Assembly (NCBI RefSeq): GCF_015354345.1
Contig: NZ_JADKYS010000006.1
Span: 62,001 to 126,000, forward strand
Length of the DNA stretch: 64,000 bases
Source: Methylophilus sp. 14
Lineage (GTDB): Bacteria; Pseudomonadota; Gammaproteobacteria; Burkholderiales; Methylophilaceae
Direction of reading: 5' to 3'
In this document: positions 11,292 through 44,896 of the stretch, piece by piece
Numbering within the stretch: the stretch's first letter is position 1
Layout of the letters: every line of letters starts with the position of its first letter
Notes under the pieces: model-generated
The model's database searches: none
Told to the model about the DNA's origin: nothing
The model's input: only the letters and a program-made list of their open reading frames with translations
Program-made: the position numbers and the translations under genes

Positions 11292-11446
11292 TGTATGCGT
11301 CACTCTCTCGAGGTGTTTCGTCAGCTAAACCATCATCGACTGTTTTTTTAATCAAACATTAAATAATTTCTCATACGAAATGCTTACCTACGGTGTGAGG
11401 ATTATTTAGCTTGCCATCATGTAATCGTTCGATTACATATTCTGCT

Positions 11447-11560: not shown

Positions 11561-11563
11561 GCT

Positions 11564-11860
11564 ATGAGCGAAAAAATCAAAGTTTCAGAACTCCCAGAGT
11601 TTGATATGGCGGAGCATATTAAAACAGAGGAAGACATCGCAGCCTATTTGAATATCGTACTCGAAGAGGGCGATGGTGCCGAGTTGGCGCATGCCTTGGG
11701 TGTGATTGCCCGCGCCAAAGGCATGGCAGACATTGCTGAAAAAAGTGGCATCACTCGTGAAGCTCTTTACAAAGCCTTAAGGCCCAATGCGCAGCCGCGG
11801 TTTGATACTGTGCATAAGGTGATGCAGGCGATGGGGGTTAAATTGCAGGCGCGTGTTTGA
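11564..11860 (+). CDS. HigA-type addiction module antidote (XRE-like HTH)
   Basis: The 98-residue antitoxin belongs to the family usually partnered with the short HigB killer proteins. Its N-terminus (KVSELPEFDMAEHIKTEEDIAAYLNIVLEEGDGAELAHALGVIARAKGM) is characteristic. The helix-turn-helix lies at about 56-92 (ADIAEKSGITREALYKALRPNAQPRFDTVHKVMQAMG). The antidote is intact while the upstream toxin is a deleted remnant. It may still repress its own promoter or protect against related toxins elsewhere. Confidence 0.85.
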   Translation: MSEKIKVSELPEFDMAEHIKTEEDIAAYLNIVLEEGDGAELAHALGVIARAKGMADIAEKSGITREALYKALRPNAQPRFDTVHKVMQAMGVKLQARV

Positions 11861-29205: not shown

Positions 29206-30213
29206 ATGTCATTTAATCCAACTTTTAAGAAGGCATTGCTGATCGCAGCACTGATCACGCCATTAGCTGCCTGGGCTGCCGACGTCAACCTGCTCAACGT
29301 GTCTTACGACCCGACGCGTGAGTTGTATCAAGACTACAACGATGCATTTGCCAAATACTGGAAAGCCAAAACCGGCGATAACGTCGTGATCAAGCAGTCA
29401 CACGGCGGCTCCGGCAAACAGGCGCGTTCTGTTATTGATGGTTTGCAGGCAGATGTGGTGACACTCGCTTTGTCTTACGATATTGACGAAGTGGGCAGCA
29501 AAGGCCGCTTGTTCGGGCCAGACTGGCAAAAGCGTCTGCCGCATAACAGCTCACCTTATACGTCTACCATTGTGTTTCTGGTGCGTAAAGGCAACCCGAA
29601 AAACATCAAGGACTGGAATGATCTGGTGAAACCAGGCACTTCCGTGATCACACCTAACCCGAAAACCTCGGGTGGTGCACGCTGGAACTACCTGGCTGCT
29701 TATGCTTATGCGCTCAAGCAGAACAATAACGACGATGCCAAAGCTAAAGACTTTTTGAAAAAGCTGTTTAAAAACGTGCCGGTGCTGGATAGCGGTGCGC
29801 GTGGCTCAACCACCACATTTGTCGAACGCGGCATTGGTGATGTGTTGCTGGCATGGGAAAACGAGGCTTTCCTGGCGCAGAAAGAGTTGGGCCCGGACAA
29901 GTTTGATATCGTGGTGCCATCCTTGTCGATTTTGGCTGAGCCGCCAGTGACGGTGGTTGATAAAAATGCCAAGCGACATGGGACTGAAGCGGTTGCAAAA
30001 GCTTACCTGGAGTATTTGTATAGCGAAGAAGGCCAGGAAATCGCGGCGAAAAATTACTACCGCCCAACCTTGGAATCTGTGGCTAAGCAATACGAAAAAC
30101 AGTTTCCAAAGGTCAATTTGATCAAGATTGATGAAACATTTGGCGGCTGGCAAAAAGCACAGAAAACACACTTTGCCGATGGTGGTGTGTTTGACGAGAT
30201 TTACCAGAAATAA
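29206..30213 (+). CDS. sbp: Periplasmic sulfate-binding protein
   Basis: This 335-residue solute-binding protein belongs to the Sbp/CysP family. After a signal peptide (1-24) it has [61 protein letters not shown] and [25 protein letters not shown], which form the anhydrous sulfate pocket. It feeds the CysTWA permease encoded 12 kb away. A paralogue lies at 39856-40836. It ends a yezD-porin-sbp operon closed by a terminator. Confidence 0.95.
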
Positions 30214-30734: not shown

Positions 30735-32426
30735 ATGAGTCAAACCGGGATTGGCGAACTGGCAGCGCCACTCAGTGAAAATATAACGCAGCGGCAGTTT
30801 ATGCGTCATCGTCTTGTACGTAAAGTACAGGACCATACTCATTTTTTGGCCATGGCAAGCATGGTCTGCGGTTTACTGGGCTTTCCACATTACCTGTTAG
30901 ATGTAGATAACAATGTCTGGCTGGCACAATTACTCACTTATCTGACGTTTATTTTGGTGAGCTACAATTTGCTGCTGGAAAACGGCCGCACCAATCTGGC
31001 GATGCTCACTATGTCACTGGTCACCATCAGTTTGTTTATGGTGCAGCTTTCCCCTTATGCTGCCGATTTTAACGATACCGCGCATCTGCTGCGCATTGCG
31101 AATGACTTACAGGTGCAACAAGACTCCAGGCTGGTGGAATATGCCTCAGGCGCTTTGCTGGCTTGCCTGATTGCCATTTCCTATCTATTCCAGCGTTCTG
31201 GTTGGCTAGCCACCAGTCAGGCAATTTTGTGTGTCGCGGTGATGATTCCATTGATCCCGCTACTGGGTTTTTTGTGCGGCATTGCCCACCCTTACGGCCT
31301 GATGCCACCATTGGCGACCCTGAGTGGTTTGTTATGTGCCTTTGGTTTATTGGCCAGGCACGCGTCGCATCCGCCCATGAGTTATTTATTGTTGATGGAC
31401 GATAACGGCAAGCAGATACGCTTCAGCATTGTGTTCTTAAGCTTTTTTGCCATCATGCTGGCCAGGGCTGGCGTCGAGTTTGAAGACAATATGCGTGCAT
31501 TGCCAGCGTTGGTGGTGGTGGCGATTCTGGCGATTGTCTATACGATGACGGTGACTTATTACCGCAAAGGGCAAAGCACCGACCTAGTGCTGCCAGCCAC
31601 GGATATGGACTTTGCTAGCCAATTGGAAGCAGCGTTGGATAGTCAGCAGTTTTTCATGGTGTATCAACCACAAGTCGATTTCAATACGGGTAAGTTAAAA
31701 GGCGTTGAGGCGCTGGTGCGCTGGCGGCATCCCGAAAAAGGTGTGATCTCACCTGAAAAATTTATTCGCGTGGCCGAACTCACCGGCTTGATTGTGCCTT
31801 TGGGCAAATGGGTGATGCGAACTGCTTGCACGCAGGCAGCGCAGTGGAAACATCACCCGGTATTGGGACAGATGGAAGTGGCTGTGAATGTGTCTGCTTT
31901 GCAGCTCAAGTCCGGCACGCTGGTAGAGGATATTTTACGCATTCTGGCTGAAACCGGTTTACCGCCACAGCGCCTGGTGGTTGAGCTGACTGAAAGCTCT
32001 TTTGTACAGGATGATGGCGAAAATGCCCGCATCATGCATCGCTTGAAACAGGCGGGCATCAAACTGGCTATTGATGATTTTGGCACCGGGTATTCGTGCT
32101 TGTCTTATCTCCGTGATATTCCTGGAGACTACTTAAAAGTTGACCGTTCATTTGTGATGGAGTTGCCAGGCCATAACAAGGCCGAGGCAGTGATTCAGGC
32201 TATTGTTAGTCTGGGTAAGAGCCTGGATTACCGCATTATTGCCGAAGGCATCGAAACCGACGCCCAGGCCAGTTTTCTCAAAGGCATAGGTTGCGATATC
32301 GCACAAGGTTTCCTGTTTTCGCGGCCGCTGGAAGCACCAGCTTTAGAGCATTGGGTGGCTAACGACCTTGCTGTCAGTACAGAATCTGAAAATCCATCAT
32401 CATGGGTGGCGAACACCAGTCGCTGA
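30735..32426 (+). CDS. Membrane-anchored EAL c-di-GMP phosphodiesterase
   Basis: In this 563-residue protein an N-terminal region of about eight membrane helices (about 38-270), with a conserved cytoplasmic or periplasmic loop SYLLLMDDNGKQIR, precedes an EAL domain (about 290-545). The catalytic set looks complete: EALVRW, NVSALQL, ELTESSF, DDFGTGYS, YLKVDRSF and AEGIETDAQ. It should hydrolyse c-di-GMP to pGpG in response to a membrane signal. The next gene is a paralogue with the same layout. It sits in the sulfur island. Confidence 0.92.
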   Translation: MSQTGIGELAAPLSENITQRQFMRHRLVRKVQDHTHFLAMASMVCGLLGFPHYLLDVDNNVWLAQLLTYLTFILVSYNLLLENGRTNLAMLTMSLVTISLFMVQLSPYAADFNDTAHLLRIANDLQVQQDSRLVEYASGALLACLIAISYLFQRSGWLATSQAILCVAVMIPLIPLLGFLCGIAHPYGLMPPLATLSGLLCAFGLLARHASHPPMSYLLLMDDNGKQIRFSIVFLSFFAIMLARAGVEFEDNMRALPALVVVAILAIVYTMTVTYYRKGQSTDLVLPATDMDFASQLEAALDSQQFFMVYQPQVDFNTGKLKGVEALVRWRHPEKGVISPEKFIRVAELTGLIVPLGKWVMRTACTQAAQWKHHPVLGQMEVAVNVSALQLKSGTLVEDILRILAETGLPPQRLVVELTESSFVQDDGENARIMHRLKQAGIKLAIDDFGTGYSCLSYLRDIPGDYLKVDRSFVMELPGHNKAEAVIQAIVSLGKSLDYRIIAEGIETDAQASFLKGIGCDIAQGFLFSRPLEAPALEHWVANDLAVSTESENPSSWVANTSR

Positions 32427-32539
32427 AGCGCGATCTCTTTGCTTGCTTATCTATAATTTCATGCCATTTCATAGCAAATCATCCATGAGTATCAATTTAA
32501 TTTGATTTAAAGGATGATAAAACCCTGTTTTATTTTATG

Positions 32540-32567
32540 TTGATCTCAATCTAATTGCGCCTATAGT
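32540..32567 (+). promoter_or_regulatory. Sigma-70-like promoter of the second EAL gene
   Basis: TTGATC (32540-32545) and TATAGT (32562-32567) with 16-bp spacing, 57 bases before the ATG. AT-rich DNA lies upstream. Confidence 0.5.
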
Positions 32568-32623
32568 AAAACAAAACTGCCTGCCAGCGCGGGCAATAAT
32601 AATAGATCGAGACAGGGGGCAAC

Positions 32624-34252
32624 ATGTCAGTATCCAGCATTGACTGGTCAGCTGTAACTGTTCAGGAATGTACAACGCAACGCCAGTACATGCGGCATCG
32701 ATTTCTTAGAACGGTACAGAAGTATTCTCCTTGGCTGGCGCTCGCCAGCATTGTGAGCGTGCTGCTAGGGTTCCCATTGAGTGACCTGCACCACACGTTT
32801 GAATTAAGTGTGCTGCAGAGTGTGAGCTATCTCATTTTTGTGATGGTGAGTTTGCGCGTTATCTATGACACCAGGCGTGAACATGCCATGATCGGATGGC
32901 TCATCGGTAGCGTGTTGCTCGGCTATGGGCTGCAAGCCTATTGGTTGTTAAGCAGCCACGCCTCTTTTAGCCATATCGCCTCCATCAACAGTCTTTCACA
33001 AGTGGTCAGTCATGGTCAGATTGCCACTGATTTTGGTATGTCTTTGCTGGTGATCGTCGGCTTTTTGCTGTGCCACTATCAATGTAACCGTGCCAGCCAG
33101 GCCGTGCTCAGTGTTGCATTGCTGCTGCCGGTGACAGGCTTGCTGGCGCGTGCTTATGGTATTCCGGATGCCTATGGACAGCTTTCCATGTTGTCTTGCC
33201 TGGGCGGTTTGCTGTGTGCCTCGGCCTTGCTGGCCAAGCAGGTCTCTCAAACCTCAATGAGTTATCTGCTATTGATGGACGATACTGGCAAGCACCTGCG
33301 CTGGATTGTCAGCTTGCTGTTTTTGTGTGCCATCGTGTTGGGTGGCGTGGGCGTGTATTTTAAACACGACTACCGTTTGACACCTTTGATTATCACGCTG
33401 GCGTTGATCTCAGTCGTCTGCATCATGACGTTTACTTATTATCGTAAAGGCGTGATGCATGAGCAGGTATTGCCGCCGGAGGACCTGGCCTTTGCCAGCG
33501 AGTTGGAAGCGGCGATTGCGCATCAGGAATTTTACCTGGTCTACCAGCCGCAACTGGACTTTATAACGGGTGAGCTCGTTGGTGTAGAGGCATTAATCCG
33601 CTGGCGACATCCACAACAAGGCGTGGTGCCGCCTGCCAAGTTTATTGGCGTGGCCGAGTTGACCGGCCTGATTGTACCTATGGGCGCCTGGGTGTTAAAA
33701 GCGGCCTGCCAGCAGGTGGCTGCCTGGCAAGAAGGGGCATTGAGCAAGGCCAAAGTGTCGGTGAACGTCTCGCCCATGCAGTTACGCTCACCAGGTTTTA
33801 CCGATTATGTGCTGCAAGTATTACGTGAAACCGGCTTGTCCGCTGATCGCCTGGTGATCGAGCTGACCGAGAGCGCGTTGATACACTCTGATTGTAAAGG
33901 CACTGATAGCTTGCAGGCGCTCAAACAATTGGGTGTCAAGCTCGCCATCGATGATTTTGGCACTGGTTATTCATGCCTGGCCTATTTGCGCGACATTCCC
34001 GGTGATTATTTAAAAGTAGACCGTTCTTTTGTCAATGATGTGCCTGGCAAAGAGCGCTCTGAGGCGGTGACCAGTGCCATTGTAGTGCTCGGCAAAAACC
34101 TGCATTACCAGATTGTGGCAGAAGGCGTTGAAACACAAGCGCAGGCCGACTACCTGAAGAGTTTAGGGTGCGATCTGGTGCAAGGCTATTTATACGCCAA
34201 GCCCATGGAAGAGCAAGCCTTGCAACAGTGGGTGAATGCAAGGCCTGCCTGA
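32624..34252 (+). CDS. Membrane-anchored EAL phosphodiesterase, paralogue of the preceding gene
   Basis: This 542-residue protein has the same architecture as its upstream neighbour: QRQYMRHRF...VQK beginning, about eight membrane helices, the SYLLLMDDTGKHLRW loop and a complete EAL domain (EALIRW, NVSPMQL, ELTESAL, DDFGTGYSCLAYLRDIPGDYLKVDRSF, AEGVETQAQ). The pair arose by tandem duplication, but codon third positions have diverged widely, so the event is old. It has its own promoter and so may be controlled separately. Strong GGGGG ribosome site. Confidence 0.92.
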   Translation: MSVSSIDWSAVTVQECTTQRQYMRHRFLRTVQKYSPWLALASIVSVLLGFPLSDLHHTFELSVLQSVSYLIFVMVSLRVIYDTRREHAMIGWLIGSVLLGYGLQAYWLLSSHASFSHIASINSLSQVVSHGQIATDFGMSLLVIVGFLLCHYQCNRASQAVLSVALLLPVTGLLARAYGIPDAYGQLSMLSCLGGLLCASALLAKQVSQTSMSYLLLMDDTGKHLRWIVSLLFLCAIVLGGVGVYFKHDYRLTPLIITLALISVVCIMTFTYYRKGVMHEQVLPPEDLAFASELEAAIAHQEFYLVYQPQLDFITGELVGVEALIRWRHPQQGVVPPAKFIGVAELTGLIVPMGAWVLKAACQQVAAWQEGALSKAKVSVNVSPMQLRSPGFTDYVLQVLRETGLSADRLVIELTESALIHSDCKGTDSLQALKQLGVKLAIDDFGTGYSCLAYLRDIPGDYLKVDRSFVNDVPGKERSEAVTSAIVVLGKNLHYQIVAEGVETQAQADYLKSLGCDLVQGYLYAKPMEEQALQQWVNARPA

Positions 34253-34261
34253 GCGCTGCAA

Positions 34262-35599
34262 TCAGCTGTCTGCTGTGGCTTGAAACTTGTGATGGTTGAG
34301 TTTAGACCTGACCAGCTCAATATGCGCGCGCAGCTCGTAGGCATATTGTGAAAACGGCACTGGTAACTTCACATTAACCACTTTGGCTTCAATATCATTG
34401 AGCTTATCCAGGCATTCCTGCACGTCTTCCGCGTTTTTGATCTCCTGTAACTGCGTGTCCAGAAAGCGCAACTCACCGTAATAACGGAACAGTTTTCGTT
34501 TCACCAGCCACACATACACCATCGGGATAATCTTGGTCAGCGGAATCAGCAAGGCCAGTAATGGCAAAATCACGATCAAGGTCCGGTTCACAAACGTTGC
34601 TGCCCAAAACGGCAGGTATTTATCAATAATCGGCAAGCCAGACTTGTAAAAGTTAAGCGCCTGCGTACTCAGTGGAAAATCGGTATCCTTGGCCGATGGA
34701 AACTCGCCTTTGCTATTAAACATGCTGGGGCCACCGTGTACTTCAGCAATCACTTTCATCATCAGGTAAACCAGGGCCGGATGCATGCTTTCTTTCACCA
34801 CCAGCGTGGCGGTCGGGGCGACCAGATGCACATCGTGGCTGGGGGTATTACGTGCCAGGTCCATGGCACCTTCGGGTAATACCAGGTGGTGCATAAACGC
34901 GAATTTGCGTGAAAAGGCTTCTGCGGTGTCCAGGCTGAGTAAGCGCAGGCGTTTGTCCGTCACCATTTCATGAATCATGCCCGAATTGGCCACATCGACA
35001 AACAGGGCAGCATCCAGCTTACCTTGGCGCAAGGCCGTGGCTGCCTCTTCACCGCCTATCTCGACAAGCCTGGTATTGCTGGCGTTAATTCCGCTTTCAT
35101 TAAGCAGGGTGCTGACCAAGGTGTGTGTGCCATTGCCCGCATAGCCGATGGCAATACGCTTGCCTTTGAGCGCAGATAAATGCGTAGTGCTGGCTTTGCA
35201 ACGGCAAAAAATCCACACTGGCTGATAATATAAACTGCCCAAAGAGAGTAGTGATCCAGCGCCTTCGCTGTGGGCCACGCCATCCTGGATAAAGGCAATA
35301 TCAACGTCCGACTCCGAGTCTTTTAACAAGCGCAGGTTTTCGGTGTCACCAGAGGTCTTGCGCAATGTGAGCGTAATGCCTTCTTTTTGCAAATAAACAC
35401 CGTAAATAGCGGCAAAGGCGTTGTAGTTTAGATCCGACTCACCGGTGGCGATCACAATCTTGCGGGGTGGCGCCGGGTCTATAAATTTATAGGCAAAAAA
35501 AAGCGCCAGGCAGATCAGCAGCACGGACGGCAGCGTTGCTTCCAGCATCTCTCTGGTAAAAATTGAGGTGAATTTGTTATTGCGTGGATCAAATTTCAT
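34262..35599 (-). CDS. Orphan TAXI-family TRAP solute-binding protein with membrane anchors
   Basis: The 445-residue protein has an N-terminal membrane helix (about 20-40). The TAXI solute-binding domain (about 48-320) contains RKIVIATGESDLNYNAFAAIYGVYLQKEG and GKRIAIGYAGNGTHTLVSTLL. A second membrane segment (about 345-375) and a cytoplasmic helical tail follow. TAXI proteins normally deliver dicarboxylates or other anions to DctQM-type permeases, but none is encoded here. The C-terminal membrane and cytoplasmic parts suggest a membrane-tethered sensor or scaffold rather than a free binding protein; this is inference. Confidence 0.85.
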   Translation of the reverse strand: MKFDPRNNKFTSIFTREMLEATLPSVLLICLALFFAYKFIDPAPPRKIVIATGESDLNYNAFAAIYGVYLQKEGITLTLRKTSGDTENLRLLKDSESDVDIAFIQDGVAHSEGAGSLLSLGSLYYQPVWIFCRCKASTTHLSALKGKRIAIGYAGNGTHTLVSTLLNESGINASNTRLVEIGGEEAATALRQGKLDAALFVDVANSGMIHEMVTDKRLRLLSLDTAEAFSRKFAFMHHLVLPEGAMDLARNTPSHDVHLVAPTATLVVKESMHPALVYLMMKVIAEVHGGPSMFNSKGEFPSAKDTDFPLSTQALNFYKSGLPIIDKYLPFWAATFVNRTLIVILPLLALLIPLTKIIPMVYVWLVKRKLFRYYGELRFLDTQLQEIKNAEDVQECLDKLNDIEAKVVNVKLPVPFSQYAYELRAHIELVRSKLNHHKFQATADS

Positions 35600-35628
35600 C
35601 GGTCAATATTCTGTATATAGAGGGCAGC

Positions 35629-35640
35629 AACCGATCGGTT
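35629..35640. promoter_or_regulatory. Perfect 12-bp palindrome upstream of the TAXI gene
   Basis: AACCGATCGGTT is an exact palindrome 30 bases before the minus-strand start codon of the TAXI protein gene. It is a candidate operator. Confidence 0.35.
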
Positions 35641-35702
35641 GATAGGGGGATTTTACAGAGGGTTGGGCAGAATGTCACAACTGACGATGATTGGCGGACA
35701 CA

Positions 35703-35742
35703 GGAAAAAAAACAGCCATTCACCGGCCGGTGAATGGCTGCC
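35703..35742 (-). terminator. Intrinsic terminator of the encapsulin operon
   Basis: Perfect 28-bp inverted repeat (CAGCCATTCACCGG and its complement) followed on the minus strand by T8, 15 bases after the cysteine desulfurase stop. Confidence 0.93.
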
Positions 35743-35755
35743 AGGATAAACCGCG

Positions 35756-37657
35756 TTAGGCGTGATAAGACGCCAGTCGCTGTAGCACTGCAATCATGCG
35801 GTCAATTTCTTCATAGGTGTTATAAAACGCCAATGAAGGACGTACGGTGGTTTCTACCCCAAAGCGGCGCAAAATCGGTTGCGCACAATGATGGCCAGAG
35901 CGCACGGCAATGCCTTCTTCATTGAGCGCTGCACCGACTTCTTCACTCTGATAGCCTTTGAGTGCAAATGACAGCACGCTGGCCTTGTGCTTGGCCGTGC
36001 CTATCAGACGCAATTTCGGGATCTGGCGCATGGCGGCGGTGGCATATTCAAGCAAAGCATGCTCGTAGGCGGCGATGTTCTCAATGCCTAAGCGTTCCAC
36101 ATATTTCAGCGCTGCGCCCAAACCAACGGCATCGGCAATATTGCCAGTGCCTGCTTCAAACTTGGCAGGCGCCGCGTGATAGACCGTTTTTTCAAACGTC
36201 ACGTCCTGGATCATATTGCCGCCGCCTTGCCAGGCAGGCATGTCTTGCAACACGTCCGCTTTGCCATACAGCGCGCCTATGCCAGTCGGGCCGAAGATTT
36301 TATGGCCTGAGAACACAAAAAAGTCTGCATCCAGCGTTTGTACATCGGTACGCAGGTGCGAGACTGATTGCGCGCCGTCCAGCAATACCTTGGCGCCAGC
36401 ACGATGTGCCATGGCAATCATTTCCTGCGCCGGGGTGACGGTGCCCAAGGCGTTGGAGACTTGCGTGAAAGACACCAGCTTGGTTTTTGCTGTGAGCAGT
36501 TTTTGATATTCCTCGAGCAAAATCTGCCCGCTGTCGTCGACTGGAATCACCTTGATCACCGCGCCTGTTTCCTGGCAAAGTTGCTGCCAGGGTACGATGT
36601 TAGCGTGATGCTCAAGGTTAGAAACCACAATCTCGTCACCAGCGCCCAAATGTTTTTTGCCCCAGGTTTTGGCCACCAGGTTAATCGCTTCTGTGGTACC
36701 ACGCACAAAAATCACGTTATTCACCGACGGCGCATTGATAAAGCGGCGCACGGTTTCACGCGCATCTTCATAAGCATCCGTCGCCCTTGCCGCCAGCGCA
36801 TGCGCGGCGCGGTGAATATTGGAGTTTTCGTGCTGGTAGAAATAGCTGATACGATCAATCACCACCTGCGGTTTGTGCGTGGTCGCGGCGTTATCAAACC
36901 AGACCAGCTGACGCCCGTTCACACGTTCGTTGAGAATCGGAAAGTCACGACGCACGGCATGCACATCAAACGCCGGGTGCGCAGAGGCGAGCAGGCTGCC
37001 GATGACGGCTGGCTCCGCTTGCAAAAAATAAAACGATTGCGCGCTGCCAGCAGACGATTTGTTGGACGGTTGCGTTGAGGCGGCCGATAATGGTGTCTGA
37101 CTCGTGCCCAAACCCAACCAGCGATCCAGCTCCTGTTGGTAAGGAATCTCTATGCCCAGGCCAGCAAAGGCCGCAGGCGCCAGGTATGCGGCGTCTAGCT
37201 GCAATACGTTCAGGTGTGCCGGATGGTTATGCAGCGGATCGCTGCCCAGTGCTTCGACGCCTGGCGCATAGGTGAGCTGCTGCGCCTGTGCTTCTTGCGT
37301 GACAGGTTGACCTTGCGATTGCACATAGCTCGGCGAAGCTGCGCCGACAGAGTTGCCGCCCACATTGCCCAGTTTGGTGGTCAATGAGTCTGTGGCGGGC
37401 ACCGATGGTTGTGGCGTGTGTGAACTTGCCAGTGATTGCGCAAAGTCTGCTGCCGCAAATGGCGCTGTGGCTGGAAAGCCCTCGGCATAAAGGTCATTCA
37501 CCAGTTGGGTCAGGGTGGCCGTATCCAGCACGCCTGTGTTTTCCAACTCGCGACCAACCCCAAGCGCAGCCGTCATCTTTGGATGCTCGCCCGGCAACGA
37601 GGCCAAAATGGCCTCAGGCTCAAAGCTCGCTAAATCGAGTGAATTACTTGTAGTCAT
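35756..37657 (-). CDS. Family 2A encapsulin cargo: cysteine desulfurase with N-terminal targeting extension
   Basis: The protein of 633 residues has two parts. Residues ~1-230 are low-complexity (Ala, Ser, Gln, Pro, Thr) and probably disordered, with short conserved-looking segments (AAFAGLGIEIPYQQELDRWLG, SFYFLQAEP). Residues ~230-633 are a SufS-type (group II) desulfurase with the PLP lysine in SGHKIFGPTG (Lys453) and the catalytic cysteine in RSGHHCAQPIL (Cys591). It converts cysteine to alanine plus persulfide sulfur. In known family 2A systems the extension loads the enzyme into the shell. The ATG at 37657 overlaps the shell gene end by 14 bases; in-frame ATGs at 37678 and 37699 are alternatives. 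Confidence 0.93.
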   Translation of the reverse strand: MTTSNSLDLASFEPEAILASLPGEHPKMTAALGVGRELENTGVLDTATLTQLVNDLYAEGFPATAPFAAADFAQSLASSHTPQPSVPATDSLTTKLGNVGGNSVGAASPSYVQSQGQPVTQEAQAQQLTYAPGVEALGSDPLHNHPAHLNVLQLDAAYLAPAAFAGLGIEIPYQQELDRWLGLGTSQTPLSAASTQPSNKSSAGSAQSFYFLQAEPAVIGSLLASAHPAFDVHAVRRDFPILNERVNGRQLVWFDNAATTHKPQVVIDRISYFYQHENSNIHRAAHALAARATDAYEDARETVRRFINAPSVNNVIFVRGTTEAINLVAKTWGKKHLGAGDEIVVSNLEHHANIVPWQQLCQETGAVIKVIPVDDSGQILLEEYQKLLTAKTKLVSFTQVSNALGTVTPAQEMIAMAHRAGAKVLLDGAQSVSHLRTDVQTLDADFFVFSGHKIFGPTGIGALYGKADVLQDMPAWQGGGNMIQDVTFEKTVYHAAPAKFEAGTGNIADAVGLGAALKYVERLGIENIAAYEHALLEYATAAMRQIPKLRLIGTAKHKASVLSFALKGYQSEEVGAALNEEGIAVRSGHHCAQPILRRFGVETTVRPSLAFYNTYEEIDRMIAVLQRLASYHA

Positions 37658-38558
37658 AGTAATGGTCAACTCCGACATCTTCCAGTACGGCAATCGCATC
37701 TTCGGTCAGTACTGCCAGTGAGCAATACAGTGAGACCAGGTAAGACGCAATCGCTTTATGGTTAATACCCATAAAACGTACGGATAAGCCCATGGTTTGT
37801 TGGCCAGGCAAGTTTGGTTGATATAGGCCAATCACGCCTTGTTTGCTTTCGCCCACGCGCAGCAACAGGATTTTGGATTTGCCATTGACGATAGGCAATT
37901 TGTCGCTAGGGATCAGTGGAATGCCGCGCCAGGTCAGGAACTGTGAACCAAACAACGACACGGTTGGTGGCGGCACGCCACGGCGGGTGCACTCACGGCC
38001 AAAGGCGGCAATCGCTTTCGGGTGTGCCAGGAAAAACGCAGGCTCTTTCCACACTTTGGTCAGCAATTCATCCAGATCATCCGGAGTAGGGAAGCCGTTA
38101 CGGGTTTTCACCGTTTGTGACTTGGCCACGTTGTTGAGCAAACCGTATTCTTTGTTATTGATCAGTTCGCTTTCCTGGCGCTCTTTGACCACTTCAATGG
38201 TTAAGCGCAGTTGCTCTTTAATCTGGTTGTGCGGGCTGCTATACAGGTCAGACACACGCGTGTGTACATCGACCACGGTATTGACGGCGTTCAACACATA
38301 TTCACGGCCCCATTCTTCGTAATCGACAAAAGTGGCTGGCAGTTCTTTTTCGTCCTTGTTTGAGCAATCGACCGTAATCGCATTTGGGTCTTTAGCCTTG
38401 TTGACGCGGTAAATACCGGCTTCGACTGGCACCCAATTGAGCAAATGCACCAGCCAGCGCGGGCTGATGGTGCTGAGCATGGGCACCGATTTGGTCGCAT
38501 TGGCAAGCGTTCGTGCGGCGACGTCGCCTAAAGCGCTCTGGGTTGGTTGTTCTGACAT
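37644..38558 (-). CDS. Family 2A encapsulin nanocompartment shell protein
   Basis: A 304-residue HK97-fold shell protein of the SrpI type. The sequence (QSALGDVAARTLANATKSVPMLSTISPRWLVHLLNWVPVEAGIYRVNK..., FLTWRGIPLIPSDKL, LPGQQTMGLSVRFMGINHKAIASYLVSLYCSLAVLTEDAIAVLEDV) matches the family. It lacks the cyclic-nucleotide-binding insertion of family 2B. Shells of this family self-assemble around a cysteine desulfurase and have been linked to sulfur starvation and storage of elemental sulfur. AAGGAGAAA lies just before the ATG, and the cargo gene starts inside the last codons. Confidence 0.95.
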   Translation of the reverse strand: MSEQPTQSALGDVAARTLANATKSVPMLSTISPRWLVHLLNWVPVEAGIYRVNKAKDPNAITVDCSNKDEKELPATFVDYEEWGREYVLNAVNTVVDVHTRVSDLYSSPHNQIKEQLRLTIEVVKERQESELINNKEYGLLNNVAKSQTVKTRNGFPTPDDLDELLTKVWKEPAFFLAHPKAIAAFGRECTRRGVPPPTVSLFGSQFLTWRGIPLIPSDKLPIVNGKSKILLLRVGESKQGVIGLYQPNLPGQQTMGLSVRFMGINHKAIASYLVSLYCSLAVLTEDAIAVLEDVGVDHYYDYK

Positions 38559-38598
38559 GTATTTCTCCTTGTAATGGGCTCAGGGTGATGTATAAAAA

Positions 38599-39501
38599 TC
38601 AAGCAGCAGCCGGAATCGGTTTCGCGTCCGAATGTGCTTGTGTGACGTGACTATTGGCGGGCACGCTGCGGGTGACCCATACATTGCCGCCAATAATGGA
38701 ATGCTTGCCGATGGTGATGCGGCCCAGAATCGTGGCCCCGGCATACACCACCACGTAGTCTTCCAGAATCGGGTGGCGTTCAAATTTCTTCACCAGATGG
38801 CCATTGGCATCTTTAGGAAAGTTTTTGGCCCCTAAAGTTACTGCCTGGTAGAGGCGCACGTGGTTACCGATGATGGCCGTTTCACCAATGACGACGCCGG
38901 TGCCATGGTCAATAAAAAAGTAATCGCCAATATTGGCCCCAGGGTGGATGTCGATACCCGTTTGTGAGTGGGCAATCTCGGTGATTAGGCGCGCAATAAT
39001 GGTCAGGCCCAGGCCATGCAAGACATGCGCGATGCGGTAATGAATCAGAGCCAGTATGCCGGGGTAGCTAACCAGAATTTCGTCGACGCTATCTGCGGCT
39101 GGGTCGCCCTGGTAGGCGGCTTCAAGGTCAGTATCCAGTTGCAGGCGGATATGCGGTAACTGCTCCGCAAACGTATGCGTCAAAATATGGGCCTGGCTAT
39201 TGAACTGGCTGGCAGGGGTGCCGGGCGATTTAAAGGCCAATTCCAGGCGAATTTGCTGCTGCAATTCACGCAAAGCTTTGTCCAGCGTGGTGCCGACATA
39301 AAAGTTGATGGCATGTGCCTGAATATCCGGGTCGCCCAAACGGTTGGGAAACAGCGAGGCCGCCAGCCAATCTAGCAGCTTGCCCAAGGCCTTGCGGGCA
39401 GGCAACTTGGGCGGCTGCGCCAGGCGTTGCCGTTGTTGTAAGGCGCTTTCACGTATGCTCGCCAGTTGCTGCACGATGTGTTCAATCGCGATCTCTTCCA
39501 T
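38599..39501 (-). CDS. epsC: Serine O-acetyltransferase, EpsC/SrpG type
   Basis: This 300-residue enzyme makes O-acetylserine, the carbon acceptor for sulfide in cysteine synthesis. An N-terminal helical domain (about 1-185) is followed by a left-handed beta-helix of hexapeptide repeats (HPGANIGDYFFIDHGTGVVIGETAIIG...). The catalytic His-Asp region is DHGTGVVIGE, and the GAKNFPKDANGHLVKKFERHPILED loop is EpsC-specific. It is the first gene of the operon, 40 bases before the encapsulin shell gene; co-occurrence with family 2A encapsulins is known. It probably replenishes cysteine as the encapsulated desulfurase consumes it. Confidence 0.93.
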   Translation of the reverse strand: MEEIAIEHIVQQLASIRESALQQRQRLAQPPKLPARKALGKLLDWLAASLFPNRLGDPDIQAHAINFYVGTTLDKALRELQQQIRLELAFKSPGTPASQFNSQAHILTHTFAEQLPHIRLQLDTDLEAAYQGDPAADSVDEILVSYPGILALIHYRIAHVLHGLGLTIIARLITEIAHSQTGIDIHPGANIGDYFFIDHGTGVVIGETAIIGNHVRLYQAVTLGAKNFPKDANGHLVKKFERHPILEDYVVVYAGATILGRITIGKHSIIGGNVWVTRSVPANSHVTQAHSDAKPIPAAA

Positions 39502-39545
39502 CGGCTATCCAATCCTGTATTTAAAGCAGTGATGCTGAGTACAGA

Positions 39546-39586
39546 CGAAAAAAAAGCCAGTCGCCCGGTGAAGGGTGACTGGCTTC
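39546..39586 (-). terminator. Leader terminator (candidate attenuator) of the encapsulin operon
   Basis: On the minus strand an 11-bp stem (GCCAGTC-x-CCC/GGG-x-GACTGGC, loop of 6) is followed by T8, ending 46 bases before the epsC start codon. No minus-strand gene lies upstream for 350 bases, so this intrinsic terminator interrupts the operon's own leader. Read-through control is inferred. It resembles the terminator at the operon end (shared TTCACCGG). Confidence 0.6.
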
Positions 39587-39606
39587 CAGGTGTCTGGTCA
39601 GCGTTA

Positions 39607-39631
39607 ATCTTTTTAAACTATAAAAGAATCC
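39607..39631. promoter_or_regulatory. Palindrome-like motif shared with the cysT upstream region
   Basis: A 25-bp segment matches 41807-41831 at 21 positions (common parts TTTTAAA and TAAAAGAATCC). It lies between the divergent epsC-encapsulin and sbp2 operons. The 354 bases from 39502 to 39855 contain no gene: leader terminator, this motif and a very AT-rich tract (39740-39810) with a half-site ATTCTTTT at 39787-39794. TATAGT at 39815-39820 may be the sbp2 -10 box. CysB or another LysR-type activator is a plausible binder. Confidence 0.5.
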
Positions 39632-39855
39632 GCCAGCCTTGAACAGGCCTAGCACTAGAATCGTTAATTATTTATTTATATGTTTTTATTCTTAACATGG
39701 TTTTTTAGGCCTGCTTTTATGCCTGATGCGGAGAGCTGACAAGCGTTATACTTATATATTTTTATATTATAAATATATTATTTTTTATTCTTTTTAAAAA
39801 TATAAGTTTATCGCTATAGTGCTCATCAGTTTGATAATAATAAAAGGAATTGAGT

Positions 39856-40836
39856 ATGCCCTTAGTTTACCGCAGTGCCTTGGTGGCCATGTTGTTGAGC
39901 AGTGTCTCGTTGCAAGCCGCCGAGCTGTTGAATGCTTCTTATGATGTCACACGTGAGTTTTATAAGGACTTTAACCCGGCATTTGTGCAGTACTGGAAAG
40001 ACAAGACCGGCGAAACGGTGACGATCAATCAGTCACACGGCGGCTCGACCAAACAGGCGCGCTCAGTGGTGGATGGCTTGCCAGCAGACGTGATTACCAT
40101 GAACCGCAGTGCGGACATTGATATCCTGGCACAAAAAGGCAAATTGATTCCAGCCAACTGGCAAACACGTTTACTCAATAACAGTGTGCCCAGCGCGTCG
40201 CCAACCGTCTTCCTGGTGCGTAAAGGCAATCCCAAACAAGTCAAAGACTGGGATGACCTGGTTCGCCCAGGCGTGACGTCTGTGATTCCTAATCCCAAGA
40301 CCTCAGGTAATGGTAAATATAGCTACCTGGCAGCCTGGGGCTATGTAACGCAAAAGGGTGGCGATGCCGCTAAAGCACGCCAGTTTGTGACGGAGTTATT
40401 CAAGCATGTGCCGGTGCTGGATACCGGCGGCCGCGGTGCTACCACCACCTTTGCCCAGCGTGAGATTGGCGATGTGCTGGTGACCTTTGAAAATGAAGTT
40501 TATCTGCTGCAAAAAGAGCTGGGTGAGGACAAATATGAGGTGGTGTATCCCTCGGTAACTGTATTGGCCGAAAACCCGGTTTCTCTGGTCGATAAAGTGG
40601 TGGATAAAAAAGGCACGCGCAAAGTGGCGCAGGCTTATCTCGAGTTTCATTTTTCACCACAAGGGCAAGCCTTAGCGGCCAAGCATTATTTGCGTCCACA
40701 AGTGAGTGAGGTGGCGCAACCGAGCTTTAAAAAGTTACATACGTTTACTGTCAAACAGGCGTTTGGCAGTTGGACCGAGGCCGAAAATACGCACTTTAGT
40801 GATGGCGGCATTTTTGACCAGATTTACCAGAAGTAA
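39856..40836 (+). CDS. Second periplasmic sulfate-binding protein
   Basis: A 326-residue Sbp-family protein with a signal peptide (about 1-20) and the binding-pocket segments SHGGSTKQARSVVDGLPADVIT, NPKTSGNGKYSYLAAWGY and GGRGATTTFAQREIGDVLVTFENE. It is similar in length and motifs to the first Sbp (29206-30213) but clearly diverged. AAAAGG lies 9 bases before ATG 39856; an in-frame TTG at 39850 is rejected. It is co-directional with a degenerate EAL gene and then cysTWA, so it is probably the main partner of that permease. Confidence 0.94.
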   Translation: MPLVYRSALVAMLLSSVSLQAAELLNASYDVTREFYKDFNPAFVQYWKDKTGETVTINQSHGGSTKQARSVVDGLPADVITMNRSADIDILAQKGKLIPANWQTRLLNNSVPSASPTVFLVRKGNPKQVKDWDDLVRPGVTSVIPNPKTSGNGKYSYLAAWGYVTQKGGDAAKARQFVTELFKHVPVLDTGGRGATTTFAQREIGDVLVTFENEVYLLQKELGEDKYEVVYPSVTVLAENPVSLVDKVVDKKGTRKVAQAYLEFHFSPQGQALAAKHYLRPQVSEVAQPSFKKLHTFTVKQAFGSWTEAENTHFSDGGIFDQIYQK

Positions 40837-40880
40837 GCAGATTTCGTCGCATTAAAAAGCAGTTTTGCAGGAGAGTCACC

Positions 40881-41762
40881 ATGACGCAACGTCAATCAAA
40901 TCAAGAGCCAGAACACGTCATACAGCTGCGCGCAGAGTTAAAGCATGCACTGTCGCTGGATCTGGAAGAGCTGGGGCTACTGGAAGCCAGTTCGGGCGAA
41001 TATGAGAGCACCTTTATCGGCGTGCATCTCAAAACCGCTTTTCAGCCCATTTATGATGCCAAACAAGGCGATATCTACGGCTACGAAGCCCTGATCCGTC
41101 CGTCTTTGTTTGGCACGCTGGGCAGCACACCAGAGTTTGCGTTCACCTATGCCGAGCAATCCGGCAAGCTGGTGCAGTTTGACCGCGTATGCCGCTCGCA
41201 GCACGTGTTGAATTACCGTGCGATTCATCAGGAAAACGGCTTGCTGTTTTTAAATGTGCATCCCAAATTGTTACTCGAAGTTAGCGCACACGGCAAGGTG
41301 TTTGAGCAGATTTTGCATAAATACTCCGTGCCTACGCATCGCGTGGTGCTGGAAATCAATGAGTCTCTGATTGAGCAGGACAAGCACCTGATTGCGGCGA
41401 TTGAGAATTACCGTGCGCTGGGCTACCAGATTGCGTTTGACCATGTCGGTGGCCATCAGAGCAAGTTGTACCGCTTATGGAGTGCGCACCATGATTACAT
41501 CAAGTTTGATGTGTCGGTGATTCACCAGGCCGCGCAACAACCCGCGCAACAACCCGCGCTGGCCAAGGCCTTGAAGGGGCTGGTAGCCACGGTGCAAGAC
41601 TTAGGCAGCACGCCGGTGATTTTGGGCATAGAAACGCAGCAGCAGCTGGATATTGCGATTGCCTCGGGTGCGACTATTTTACAGGGTAACTTGCTGGCCG
41701 CGCCGGTGGTGGCCAAGGTGATTAATGCCCAATATCAGCACCGCTCGCCCAAAGTAGCCTAA
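40881..41762 (+). CDS. Degenerate EAL-domain protein in the sulfate-uptake operon
   Basis: A 293-residue soluble protein made of one EAL domain after a short helical N-terminus. Kept residues are Glu69 (YEALIRP), Asn125 (FLNVHP), Glu158 (LEINES), Lys208 (YIKFD) and Glu251 (GIETQQ). The DDFG metal motif is replaced by Asp187-His188-Val-Gly. Loss of the second Asp normally abolishes hydrolysis, so it may bind c-di-GMP or a protein partner instead. A short duplication makes QQPAQQPA (about 219-226). Gene order is sbp2-EAL-cysT, which suggests that sulfate uptake and c-di-GMP are linked. Confidence 0.88.
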   Translation: MTQRQSNQEPEHVIQLRAELKHALSLDLEELGLLEASSGEYESTFIGVHLKTAFQPIYDAKQGDIYGYEALIRPSLFGTLGSTPEFAFTYAEQSGKLVQFDRVCRSQHVLNYRAIHQENGLLFLNVHPKLLLEVSAHGKVFEQILHKYSVPTHRVVLEINESLIEQDKHLIAAIENYRALGYQIAFDHVGGHQSKLYRLWSAHHDYIKFDVSVIHQAAQQPAQQPALAKALKGLVATVQDLGSTPVILGIETQQQLDIAIASGATILQGNLLAAPVVAKVINAQYQHRSPKVA

Positions 41763-41777
41763 TCATTTTTTCAATAT

Positions 41778-41850
41778 AACAGGCGCTTATAAATTAATGA
41801 TTATTTATTCTTTTAAAGTTTAAAAGAATCCAGCTACATTAGCGCCTGTT
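41778..41850. promoter_or_regulatory. Nested perfect inverted repeats upstream of cysT
   Basis: Outer arms AACAGGCGCT (41778-41787) and AGCGCCTGTT (41841-41850) enclose an inner perfect palindrome with 11-bp arms ATTCTTTTAAA/TTTAAAAGAAT around one central base (41807-41829). The inner element recurs at 39607-39631. The position, 20-90 bases before cysT, suits an operator; as RNA it would fold into a long stem-loop between the EAL and cysT genes. Confidence 0.55.
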
Positions 41851-41870
41851 TACACTGGTTACCACACAAT

Positions 41871-42704
41871 ATGGCATCACAAAAAAAGAAACATTTACTT
41901 CCCGGCTTCGGGCTGTCATTGGGGGTCACGCTGGTTTATTTAAGCCTGATTGTCCTTATCCCACTCGCCGCTGTCTTTTTACGTACGACTGAACTCAGTT
42001 GGCATGAATTTTGGGCCGTGGTGACGACGCCACGCGTGGTGGCGACTTATAAACTCACCTTTGGTGCTTCACTGCTGGCCGCAGTGATTAACCTGGTCTT
42101 TGGCTTGCTGACCGCCTGGGTGCTGGTGCGCTACCAGTTTGTTGGTAAAAAAATTCTCGATGCCTTGGTCGATTTACCCTTTGCATTGCCAACCGCCGTA
42201 GCGGGTATTGCGCTGACCGCAATTTATGCACCGAATGGCTGGTTAGGACAATGGTTGGAACCCCACGGCATTAAAGTCGCCTTTACGCCGCTGGGCGTGG
42301 TAGTCGCGCTGACGTTTATCGGCTTGCCATTTGTGGTACGCACAGTGCAGCCGGTGCTGGAAGACTTTAGTGCAGAAGCCGAGGAAGCCGCTGCCAGCCT
42401 GGGTGCCAACCGTTGGCAAACATTTTACAAGATTATTTTGCCAGCCATTTGGCCTGCCTTGCTCACTGGTTTTTCGCTGGCCTTTGCCCGCGCCGTGGGT
42501 GAGTATGGCTCGGTGATTTTTATTGCGGGCAATATGCCGATGATTTCCGAGATCACACCGCTGATGATTATTACCAAGCTTGAACAATACGACTATGCCG
42601 GGGCAACCGCGATTGCCGTGGTGATGCTGGTGATTTCGTTTGTCTTGTTGTTGCTGATTAACTTATTGCAGTGGTGGAGCAATCACCGCCATGGCAATAA
42701 ATAA
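41871..42704 (+). CDS. cysT: Sulfate ABC permease CysT
   Basis: A 277-residue inner-membrane permease with six helices and the EAA cytoplasmic loop (EAEEAAASLGANRWQTFYKIILPAIWPALLTG) that docks to CysA. The family signatures LPFALPTAVAGIALTAIY and RAVGEYGSVIFIAGN are present. With CysW and CysA it imports sulfate or thiosulfate delivered by Sbp. It is the first of three consecutive genes and follows a region with nested palindromes. Confidence 0.96.
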   Translation: MASQKKKHLLPGFGLSLGVTLVYLSLIVLIPLAAVFLRTTELSWHEFWAVVTTPRVVATYKLTFGASLLAAVINLVFGLLTAWVLVRYQFVGKKILDALVDLPFALPTAVAGIALTAIYAPNGWLGQWLEPHGIKVAFTPLGVVVALTFIGLPFVVRTVQPVLEDFSAEAEEAAASLGANRWQTFYKIILPAIWPALLTGFSLAFARAVGEYGSVIFIAGNMPMISEITPLMIITKLEQYDYAGATAIAVVMLVISFVLLLLINLLQWWSNHRHGNK

Positions 42705-42778
42705 ATTGGCTGCGCGGGCAAATCACGGCGTTGGTGCTTTATTCCCGCTGGTTTAATCTTTATTAAATAATAGAAACT

Positions 42779-43669
42779 ATGCATACCACACAATTTCAAC
42801 AATATCAGGGCAAGGTCGCTTACAAGCGCGCGACCTCTGAACCGACCTGGGTGCGCTGGGGGCTGATTGGCCTGGCACTGGCTTTTTTGGGGTTGTTTTT
42901 ATTAATCCCGTTGGCGGCGGTGTTTGCTGAGGCTTTGCGCAAAGGCTGGGGCGTTTACCTGGCGGCGATTACCGAAGCAGATGCACTGTCAGCGATGAAG
43001 CTGACACTGATTGCTTCTTTGATTTCGGTGCCACTAAACCTGGTGTTTGGCGTGGTAGCGGCCTGGGCCATTACCAAATTCGACTTTAAAGGCAAAAGCT
43101 TTCTGATCACCTTGATTGATTTGCCGTTTGCTGTGTCACCGGTGATTGCAGGTTTAATTTTTGTGCTGATTTTTGGCCTGCAAGGCTGGTTTGGCGAGTG
43201 GTTGATTGATCATGATCTCAAAGTCGTATTCGCAGTGCCTGGTATTGTGCTGGCGACCATTTTTGTGACCTTTCCGTTTGTGGCCCGCGAGTTGATTCCG
43301 CTCATGCAGGCACAGGGCAAAGAAGAGGAGGAGGCGGCATTGGTATTAGGCGCTTCTGGCTGGAAAATGCTCTGGCACGTGACCTTGCCTAATGTGAAGT
43401 GGGGCCTGATTTATGGTGTGATTTTGACCAATGCGCGTGCCATGGGCGAGTTTGGTGCGGTGTCTGTGGTGTCCGGCCATATCCGCGGGCTGACCAATAC
43501 CATGCCGCTGCACGTCGAAATTTTGTATAACGAATATAACTATGCTGCCGCGTTTGCTGTTGCTTCATTGCTGACGCTGCTGGCACTGGTAACCCTGGTC
43601 TTAAAAACATATGTCGAATGGCAGGCTTCGCGTGATGCCGCCAATATTGAAAAGGAAGTGACGGCTTAA
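42779..43669 (+). CDS. cysW: Sulfate ABC permease CysW
   Basis: The 296-residue second permease subunit has six helices and the EAA loop ([32 protein letters not shown]). [19 protein letters not shown] and [19 protein letters not shown] are CysW-specific. It has a cytoplasmic N-terminal extension of about 25 residues. The stop is separated from the cysA ATG by one base, so translation is probably coupled. The 74-base gap before it, after cysT, carries no terminator. Confidence 0.96.
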
Positions 43670-43670
43670 C

Positions 43671-44648
43671 ATGAGTATTACCATTCAACAGATTAACAAA
43701 GGCTTTGGCCAATTTAGCGCGTTGCGTGATATCAACCTGCAAGTGCCGTCTGGCGAGTTGGTGGCCTTGCTGGGGCCGTCAGGTTGCGGAAAAACCACCT
43801 TGTTGCGCATCATCGCCGGGCTAGAATCACCGGATAGCGGCCAAGTGTTGTTTGATGGCGTAGACACCACGCACCGCGATGTGCGTGAGCGCCAGGTGGG
43901 TTTTGTGTTTCAGCACTATGCGCTGTTCCGCCATATGACCGTGTTTGAAAACGTGGCGTTTGGCCTGCGCGTGCGTCCAAAAGAAACCCGTCCGTCAGAT
44001 GCTGAGATTAAAAAACGCGTGCATGATTTGCTCAAACTGGTGCAGTTAGACTGGCTGGCAGACCGTTATCCACCGCAATTGTCTGGTGGCCAGCGTCAGC
44101 GTATCGCCCTGGCGCGTGCCTTGGCGGTAGAGCCTAAAGTGTTGTTGCTAGATGAGCCATTTGGCGCGCTGGATGCCAAAGTGCGTAAAGACCTGCGCCG
44201 CTGGCTGCGTCGCTTGCATGACGAGTTACATGTGACCAGCGTGTTTGTCACGCATGACCAGGAAGAAGCGTTAGAAGTGGCTGACACTATTGTGGTGATG
44301 AATCATGGCCAGGTAGAGCAGGTGGGTTCACCACAGGCGGTGTACGATCAGCCCGCCACACCGTTTGTGTATGAGTTTTTGGGCAATGTGAATGCGTTTG
44401 AAACGCCGCAGGGTAAAGGTTTTGTGCGCCCCTATGAAATCGCCGTGAGCCGTGAGGCTGAAGCCAATAGCATCGCGGGTGCGCTAACCTATGTGCATTC
44501 TGTCGGCTCGCTGGTGCGTCTGGAAATCAAGCGTACAGACAATGCGCAATATGTGGACGTGGAACTTGGGCGTGACCAGTTTAACCAGTTGAATTTTCAG
44601 CAAGGTGAAACCGTCTATTTGAAGCCAACGCAGTTACGCGTGTTTTAA
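43671..44648 (+). CDS. cysA: Sulfate ABC transporter ATPase CysA
   Basis: The 325-residue ATPase drives sulfate import through CysTW. Walker A is GPSGCGKTT, the Q-loop FQHYALF, the signature [15 protein letters not shown], Walker [12 protein letters not shown] and the switch His is in VTHDQEEA. The C-terminal TOBE-like domain (about 240-325) is shorter than in some CysA proteins. It is the last gene of cysTWA, closed by an intrinsic terminator. Confidence 0.97.
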
Positions 44649-44675
44649 ACAAGCGCTACGTTTAGTCATCTTAGC

Positions 44676-44707
44676 CAGGCGAGCAATCATGCTCGCCTGT
44701 TTTTTTT
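44676..44707 (+). terminator. Intrinsic terminator of cysTWA
   Basis: CAGGCGAGC/GCTCGCCTG stem with loop AATCAT, followed by T8. Confidence 0.95.
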
Positions 44708-44765
44708 GCCCGCTTGGCGTGAGATGCGCTCAACATTTCAATGACGGCTAATCGCTATCTTTTTG

Positions 44766-44849
44766 TTATCAACTATTAAATTAAATCAATGTTTAATGAC
44801 GTAAACAGAATAACGTTATCATGTCTTGTCACTCCCTGATAGTTGATAA
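44766..44849. promoter_or_regulatory. Long-range 11-bp inverted repeat before the globin-coupled cyclase gene
   Basis: TTATCAACTAT (44766-44776) and ATAGTTGATAA (44839-44849) are exact complements 62 bases apart. The left arm begins the 14-mer CAACTATTAAATTA that also occurs at 30585-30598 before the first EAL gene, where TGATAGTT again follows about 50 bases later. It is a candidate operator pair shared by the two c-di-GMP genes. Confidence 0.4.
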
Positions 44850-44896
44850 TATTGTGTCGGCTATAGAGTGCACATGATTAAACAATGGCATAAGTG

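Follow-up and report, generated by a model that had tools for sequence, protein, structure and literature searches.

The closest described relative of the locus analysed here is the encapsulin system of Synechococcus elongatus, portrayed in the main text of Nichols et al. 2021 (PMC8049743) as combining the SrpI shell with CyD, a cysteine desulfurase that carries a long N-terminal extension, in a sulfur context. More broadly, the main text of Andreas and Giessen 2021 (PMC8346489) lists serine acetyltransferase (SAT) as an enriched accessory gene among 1281 family 2A (F2A) desulfurase operons. Here we examine an operon of this already known kind (SAT, F2A shell and CyD) on the minus strand of a 64,000-nt stretch of Methylophilus sp. 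14 (contig NZ_JADKYS010000006.1, positions 62,001 to 126,000; hereafter the window), together with a conserved leader RNA of about 60 nt in front of it. The window operon differs from that of S. elongatus in having this structured leader and in lying divergent from a sulfate-uptake operon that carries an EAL gene. To our knowledge, how F2A encapsulins are switched on outside cyanobacteria is an open question. We favour, with a probability of roughly 0.7, an explanation in which the F2A sulfur operon is governed by the leader acting as an attenuator.

An earlier note on this DNA, made from its letters, had proposed that three minus-strand genes at 35756-39501 encode an EpsC-type SAT, an SrpI-type shell and a cysteine desulfurase with an extension of about 230 residues. 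Open frames are present in that order, and curated NCBIfam cut-offs together with Pfam bear out each identity. SAT (38599-39501, 300 aa) scores 157.2 bits against NF041874, whose cut-off is 150, and 161.4 bits against the CysE model TIGR01172, below the cut-off of 210.65; its closest solved chain is 3f1x (E 7.5e-81). The shell (37644-38558, 304 aa) scores 535.8 bits against encap_f2a (NF041162, cut-off 380) over positions 1-295 of the 295-position model, and matches the Pfam SrpI-like family PF19307 (E 3.4e-105). The cargo CyD (35756-37657) reaches 909.2 bits against f2_encap_cargo1 (NF041166, cut-off 800), has a SufS-type catalytic domain by profile match and finds its best solved relative in 8kg1. 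A longer open frame starts at 37699 (35756-37699); the most likely start is the ATG at 37657, which gives 633 aa and overlaps the shell stop by 14 nt. The operon is closed by an intrinsic terminator on the same strand (35711-35742), with a 14-pair stem and a T run, which was the best site of our general scan. Together, these features make it nearly certain that this is a family 2A encapsulin operon.

The shell and S. elongatus SrpI (6x8m) align with each other over residues 2-304 of both proteins (phmmer E 2.2e-158). The shell also exceeds the family 2B cut-off (421.8 versus 400 bits), with its best stretch at 210-449 of the 450-position profile and a second stretch of that profile passing as well. 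Because the protein has only 304 aa and scores higher against the 2A profile, there is no room for a cyclic-nucleotide (cNMP) insertion, whose absence the earlier note had rightly described. G194, P196, F262, Y273 and R192 are invariant across 11 aligned shells; the first four correspond to pore and cargo-site residues of SrpI that are thus kept in the window shell, and R192 is also discussed in the main text of the same study (Nichols et al. 2021, PMC8049743). SrpI Arg304 is replaced by Lys. The similarity to solved shells argues for an HK97 fold, and by analogy a T=1 particle of about 25 nm would be expected. An AlphaFold model built from 11 close relatives counts on the other side: its mean pLDDT was 34.7 and it was not used. 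The shell is single-copy in the window genome, and its nearest counterparts in named records belong to Methylophilus sp. Bin_55_2 (L002, 100%) and Methylophilus sp. 13 (L003, 99%).

For CyD we aligned 60 sequences, the window protein and 59 relatives of at least 560 aa drawn from the 75 loci with a match. Lys453 and Cys591, proposed earlier as catalytic and correctly numbered if translation begins at ATG 37657, are identical in all 60. The extension of some 230 residues, which precedes residue 228, shows little conservation, with a column mean of 0.24 compared with 0.83 for the catalytic part, and abounds in Ala, Leu, Ser, Pro, Gly, Thr and Gln. Two conserved spots within it, LTQLVNDLYA (49-58) and SAQSFYFLQA (around F209-L212), stand where the published extension motifs are expected in this alignment. 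They share only 3/10 and 4/10 letters with those motifs, LARLANEFFS and AASPYYFLDG, as given in the main text of Nichols et al. 2021 (PMC8049743).

A SufS-type desulfurase could instead feed iron-sulfur or thio-cofactor synthesis rather than storage, and both outcomes are discussed in the main text of Nichols et al. 2021 (PMC8049743). A canonical IscS is encoded at 61926-63143 in the window, however, and a CysE above its cut-off just beyond it, so that SAT and CyD are extra copies and household needs are seemingly covered; a later paper, in the portion bearing on this point, links desulfurase encapsulins to sulfur storage. We consider the cofactor role doubtful. A family 2A encapsulin with the same shell and cargo classes is said to store elemental sulfur, in work attributed to Benisch and colleagues in 2024; storage by the window's system is presumed.

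When the upstream DNA of related operons was aligned, a stretch in front of SAT stood out as much better conserved than its flanks, a feature that the earlier note had passed over. In the window this leader occupies 39546-39612 on the minus strand. It comprises, in the direction of transcription, the motif GCTGACC from 39602, a first hairpin (P1, 39597-39594 with 39589-39586), a second hairpin (P2, 39583-39556) and a run of eight T (39555-39548), which stops 46 nt short of the SAT start. P1 is a possible 4-bp hairpin, CCAG-ACAC-CTGG, followed by AA. P2 reads GCCAGTC...GACTGGC before the eight T and has the features of an intrinsic terminator, with a GC-rich hairpin of 14 predicted pairs and 8 U in the window copy. 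Folding the 139-nt window leader gave a z-score of -5.9 with the terminator hairpin formed.

Base changes across relatives are consistent with this structure. In alignment A3, covering 11 pairs, 99.6% of 495 cells are paired and 30 carry double changes. The covariation score is 0.245 versus 0.116 in shuffles, none of 500 being as high, and controls with slid pairings reach at most 0.076; for further pair types, 52 of 500 shuffles were as high. P1 alone is paired in 180 of 180 cells with 10 double changes, figures that, like its score, none of 500 shuffles attained. RNAalifold recovered 16 pairs, 10 of them with changes on both sides.

The placement of the leader is equally consistent. We built a covariance model, R1, from 45 distinct copies and ran it over 80 related loci, the best 80 of 585 confirmed stretches and thus a sample of the nearest shells only. 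It scores the window copy at 67.9 bits and gives 46 matches above 50 bits in 44 of the 80 loci; 40 of these were in the model alignment and match by construction, while six were outside it (L045, L061, L066, L067, L073 and the second L054 copy). All 46 lie 22-129 nt upstream of, and on the same strand as, the projected start of SAT (23), cysK (18) or the shell (5). In Methylobacter tundripaludum SV96, for instance, the gene before SAT is cysteine synthase A (462.4 versus 350.95 bits). By hand-assigned group, the leader is present in 17 of 20 Methylophilaceae loci, 22 of 29 Methylococcales loci and 5 of 16 other or unnamed loci. The next R1 match scores 32.9 bits (L049) and all others at most 26.9. 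The L049 match (6850-6919) is a weakened leader at the usual Methylococcales position, its core kept and its terminator hairpin damaged.

At the genome scale we drew on a survey of 80 Methylophilaceae genomes, 35 of them shell-bearing, and on 24 shell-bearing genomes sampled elsewhere in the order. R1 was run over 61 chosen genomes, including 16 of these 35 shell-bearing Methylophilaceae; copies with E < 1e-6 were called strong, and matches with E above 1e-4 were treated as chance and excluded from copy counts. A strong copy at the operon was found in 13 of 16 shell-bearing and 1 of 12 shell-less Methylophilaceae. It was also found in 1 of 5 genomes with a shell match elsewhere in the class (that of G543 being partial, at 51%) and in none of 4 other shell-less genomes. 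The window genome (Methylophilus-type, 3.02 Mb in 15 contigs) has a single R1 match at E <= 0.01 under strict filters. Among 369 genomes of the class, 7 of which have a shell match, R1 reached E <= 1e-4 in two, the window genome and G505, both shell-bearing. A match in G279 (38.1 bits) was rejected as a leader copy, as it resembles an ordinary terminator and lies far from the shell of that genome. The shell-less G019 has the leader and, behind it, 44 codons of SAT and 55 bp from the start of the shell gene (L085 8705-9154), which looks like a deletion remnant of the operon.

Four genomes carry further leader copies before outer-membrane genes (G505, G010, G001 and G017; L176, L177, L178 and L179). 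Three of these genes match Pfam OMPP1/FadL/TodX, and that of G017 (L179) was judged by eye. The G010, G001 and G017 copies directly follow a gene for an ABC ATPase, identified as cysA from its position behind cysT and cysW. P1 in the four copies reads CCGG/CCGG, CCTG/CAGG, CCTG/CTGG (one mismatch) and CCAG/CTGG.

Upstream of the leader, a possible sigma-70 promoter (TGTTCA-17-TATAGT, 39617-39645, minus strand) ends 14 nt before GCTGACC and scores 8 in the window. We tested 45 sequences, namely the window and 44 copies (all but those of L004 and L067). Promoter-like scores of at least 9 of 12 occur upstream of 24 of the 45, against a mean of 4.85 and a maximum of 9 in 100 mononucleotide shuffles, and 29 of the 32 sites scoring at least 8 end 9-23 nt before GCTGACC.

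Short hairpins adjoining an intrinsic terminator before regulated genes, as in this leader, are familiar from ANTAR two-hairpin targets and mini-ykkC. We know of no attenuator or small riboswitch, however, that fits its loop and flanks. At Rfam gathering scores nothing matched, neither in the window nor at the leader of the five relatives examined; below threshold, the leader region gave seven matches with E values of 0.049-4.5. The leader core was not found printed in the open-licence literature. As far as these literature and Rfam searches reach, the leader RNA is undescribed.

The data show the leader's sequence, covariation, placement and specificity and the promoter-like sequence before many copies; attenuation, the signal sensed and the direction of response are what we infer. 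Transcription most likely starts a few bases before GCUGACC, just upstream of the leader. When sulfur is plentiful, P2 would act as an intrinsic terminator and stop transcription; under sulfur need, or on a corresponding signal, a factor recognising GCUGACC, P1 and GGAAG would let the polymerase pass, so that SAT, shell and CyD would be made alongside the divergent sulfate-uptake operon. The direction of this response is a guess taken from S. elongatus, in which SrpI is described as rising on sulfate starvation. By comparison with close relatives, SAT would supply O-acetylserine for cysteine synthesis, CyD would be loaded into the shell through its N-terminal extension and convert cysteine to alanine and bound sulfur, and the shell would probably keep that sulfur as a store.

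The same features could be those of a trans-acting small RNA of about 60 nt that ends at the terminator, the operon being read via read-through or a second promoter. Promoter-like sequence directly precedes many copies, the transcript would end in a U tract as small RNAs do, and primary-sequence conservation is strong. A trans-acting gene need not keep such a position, however, and every one of the 46 copies stands immediately before SAT, cysK or the shell on the same strand, with the others before FadL-type genes. We regard a small RNA as unlikely.

The leader might also be an ordinary insulating terminator conserved by shared ancestry only. The element is indeed a terminator, intergenic DNA is similar among related genomes, and the window copy folds best without P1. 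Against this, beta- and gammaproteobacterial operons that differ in their first gene share P1 and GCUGACC/GGAAG, and no other match in the 80 loci exceeds 32.9 bits, that one being the weakened copy at the expected place in L049. Furthermore, 16 of the 19 leader-bearing loci among L002-L021 have a divergent sulfur gene upstream, so there would be no upstream transcript to stop there. An insulator is in our judgement quite unlikely. That the window genome carries a dead or silent encapsulin relic is highly improbable: presence is patchy, with the shell in 3 of the 7 surveyed genomes of the genus, and in G019 only 5′ remnants of SAT and shell survive, but in the window the frames are intact, the catalytic residues are kept and dN/dS relative to L003 amounts to 0.012 (shell) and 0.04 (CyD and SAT), at dS 0.65-1.3.

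A number of observations weigh against a cis-acting attenuator. The minimum-energy fold of the 139-nt leader lacks P1, with GCUGA and CAGAC pairing beyond the terminator, and the P1 loop is ACAA or ACCA in only 31 of 45 sequences (ACAC in the window) and TCCG in the further copy L176. Because of this fold and this loop variation we lowered slightly the odds of the attenuator and of the broader proposal given below. Only 4 pairs make up P1, and two of them are constant; 14 of 500 shuffles matched its number of varying pairs and all 500 its further pair types. Among the copies before outer-membrane genes, that of L178 has a U-U mismatch in P1. Three inner pairs of P2 are broken in 5-11 of the 45 sequences, and covariation in P2 is expected of any terminator. 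We saw no conserved alternative pairing able to break the terminator, which leaves the antitermination step unexplained; checked by eye for a rearranging antiterminator, CCAG/CTGG variants could pair differently and CCGG variants could not. A general scan of 34000-45000 gave no excess of promoters or terminators (12 terminators versus 14.2 in shuffles) and listed neither the leader promoter nor P2, the latter because a mismatch interrupts its stem. The distribution also has gaps: 36 of the 80 related loci are without a strong copy, among them all 9 Nitrosomonadaceae and all 6 Gallionellaceae-type loci, and a strong copy at the operon is absent from all 24 shell-bearing genomes sampled elsewhere in the order. 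All counts are raw numbers, uncorrected for shared ancestry. On balance, we put a cis-acting attenuator at even odds.

The operon lies between two sulfate-uptake loci, as the earlier note had observed. To its left is a second sulfate-binding protein gene, sbp (29206-30213, plus strand, identified by profile matches), preceded by a gene (27502-29193) that matches an alginate-export porin family in Pfam. To its right, divergent from SAT on the plus strand, is the operon cysP-EAL-cysT-cysW-cysA (39856-44648), which encodes a cysP-type sulfate-binding protein (39856-40836; TIGR00971, 430 bits; listed frame from TTG 39850), an EAL-fold protein and the sulfate ABC transporter components CysT (41871-42704), CysW (42779-43669) and CysA (43671-44648). 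Two EAL genes and a TAXI-type gene separate the left locus from the encapsulin operon. The TAXI gene (34262-35599) was considered as an operon member and rejected, as the closing terminator stands in between; the solute-binding protein it encodes has hydrophobic stretches by eye, and there are no TRAP transporter genes among its annotated neighbours. Before cysP, an AT-rich block at about 39767-39807 (TATTATAAATATATTATTTTTTATTCTTTTTAAAAATATAA) is preserved across nine aligned sequences that represent several genera of Methylophilaceae and is perhaps a CysB-type operator. Near the sulfate operon lies an O-acetylhomoserine/O-acetylserine sulfhydrylase gene (46851-48122), of which an 86% relative adjoins CyD in L009.

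The earlier note had further suggested that shell formation is tied to sulfur supply. Gene context agrees: a sulfate-transport gene (sbp, cysP, cysT or cysW, at least 55% identity over half its length) occurs inside the fetched stretch in 57 of the 80 related loci, in 30 of the 40 having at least 8.5 kb on both sides, and in 17 of 80 belongs to an unbroken series of same-strand genes that includes the shell. The clearest case is Nitrosomonas oligotropha Nm75 (L028), whose shell and cargo genes lie inside a sulfate-transport operon, with sbp (6559-7560), an EAL-like gene (8003-8881), shell (8980-9897), CyD (9842-11719), cysT, cysW, cysA and SAT in order on one strand. The association does not hold everywhere, however. 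Shell and cysT are within 10 kb of each other in 21 of the 35 shell-bearing Methylophilaceae (2 have no cysT match and 8 have it on another contig), compared with only 5 of the 24 shell-bearing genomes sampled elsewhere in the order. The link between encapsulin and sulfate transport is thus real but typical of certain lineages, not general.

The EAL-fold protein of the sulfate operon (40881-41762, plus strand, between cysP and cysT) stands alone and has a damaged catalytic site (DDFG to DHVG, AEG to ILG). It matches Pfam with E 7.2e-36, and its model (pLDDT 85) has the EAL domain of BifA (8arv) as best fold match, which supports an EAL barrel. Unlike EAL phosphodiesterases, it is without the second Asp of DD and the Glu of AEG, and so lacks the residue set of an active EAL cyclic di-GMP (c-di-GMP) phosphodiesterase; the catalytic and metal roles of the checked residues are taken here as assumed. 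Its family has 36 members in 35 of the 80 loci, all scoring at least 150 bits, with eight other matches at 67 or less. Twenty-five aligned members share D101-R102-x-x-R105-x-x-H108-x-x-N111. The same two residues, Asp to H and Glu to L in the window protein, are replaced in most Methylophilaceae members, and Nitrosomonas and Methylococcales relatives have lost most of the catalytic residues; these are intact in relatives L115-L121, of which several have an sbp gene nearby. Compared with three relatives, dN/dS is 0.02-0.05, like that of cysT, at a dS of 0.9-2.0, near saturation. Purifying selection thus keeps the gene even as its catalytic residues are lost stepwise from lineage to lineage, and the protein is probably non-enzymatic; the earlier note had passed over this degenerate EAL gene as well.

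This gene follows the sulfate operon more than the shell. Among the 80 Methylophilaceae genomes, 43 have a match of at least 300 bits, in 40 of which it is within 10 kb of cysT; of the other three, one has no cysT match and two have it on another contig. In all 9 shell-less Methylophilaceae with the EAL gene it lies in the sulfate cluster, and we dropped the idea of an encapsulin component as the principal interpretation on this ground. Outside the family, 15 of 34 genomes with a stand-alone EAL relative have it within 10 kb of cysT (2 have no cysT match). The gene is found near a shell with no sulfate gene nearby in 3 of 23 loci. For larger EAL proteins (about 430 aa) we found no such link: 1 of 46 genomes has one within 10 kb of cysT, and 21 of the 46 have no cysT match.

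Other c-di-GMP-type features occur in the neighbourhood. The N-terminal parts of the two EAL proteins at 30735-34252 look hydrophobic by eye, and all twelve residues checked in their catalytic sites are present; this pair and a GGDEF protein with a DosC-like middle domain (44894-46306) flank the sulfur genes. In Methylomicrobium sp. RS1, a c-di-GMP-I riboswitch (L072 14062-14152; 41.4 versus 35 bits) lies within 5 kb of the shell gene. The main text of Nichols et al. 2021 (PMC8049743) mentions neither EAL nor c-di-GMP, and EAL, c-di-GMP, GGDEF and Methylophil- are absent from the main text, the only part covered, of Andreas and Giessen 2021 (PMC8346489). In the open-licence literature no paper joins encapsulin with Methylophilus, and those joining encapsulin with c-di-GMP or riboswitch concern, by title, phages, vaccines and synthetic biology.

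We tentatively offer a broader proposal, which we would sooner doubt than assert: that the leader represents a new cis-RNA family that reads the sulfur state and attenuates cysteine synthesis through SAT and cysK, the encapsulin store and, in some genomes, a FadL-type outer-membrane gene near the sulfate transporter, with the decayed EAL protein of the sulfate operon as a non-enzymatic regulator. The EAL lineage, in some bacteria intact beside sulfate genes and in others stripped of its catalytic residues, would join c-di-GMP-type proteins to sulfate uptake. With a compact, covarying leader before SAT, cysK or shell, the question of F2A regulation can be tested directly in methylotrophs that grow in culture, and a single element links the making of the shell to the supply of cysteine. 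Should the leader sense a sulfur compound, it would form a new sensor class, small enough for in vitro study.

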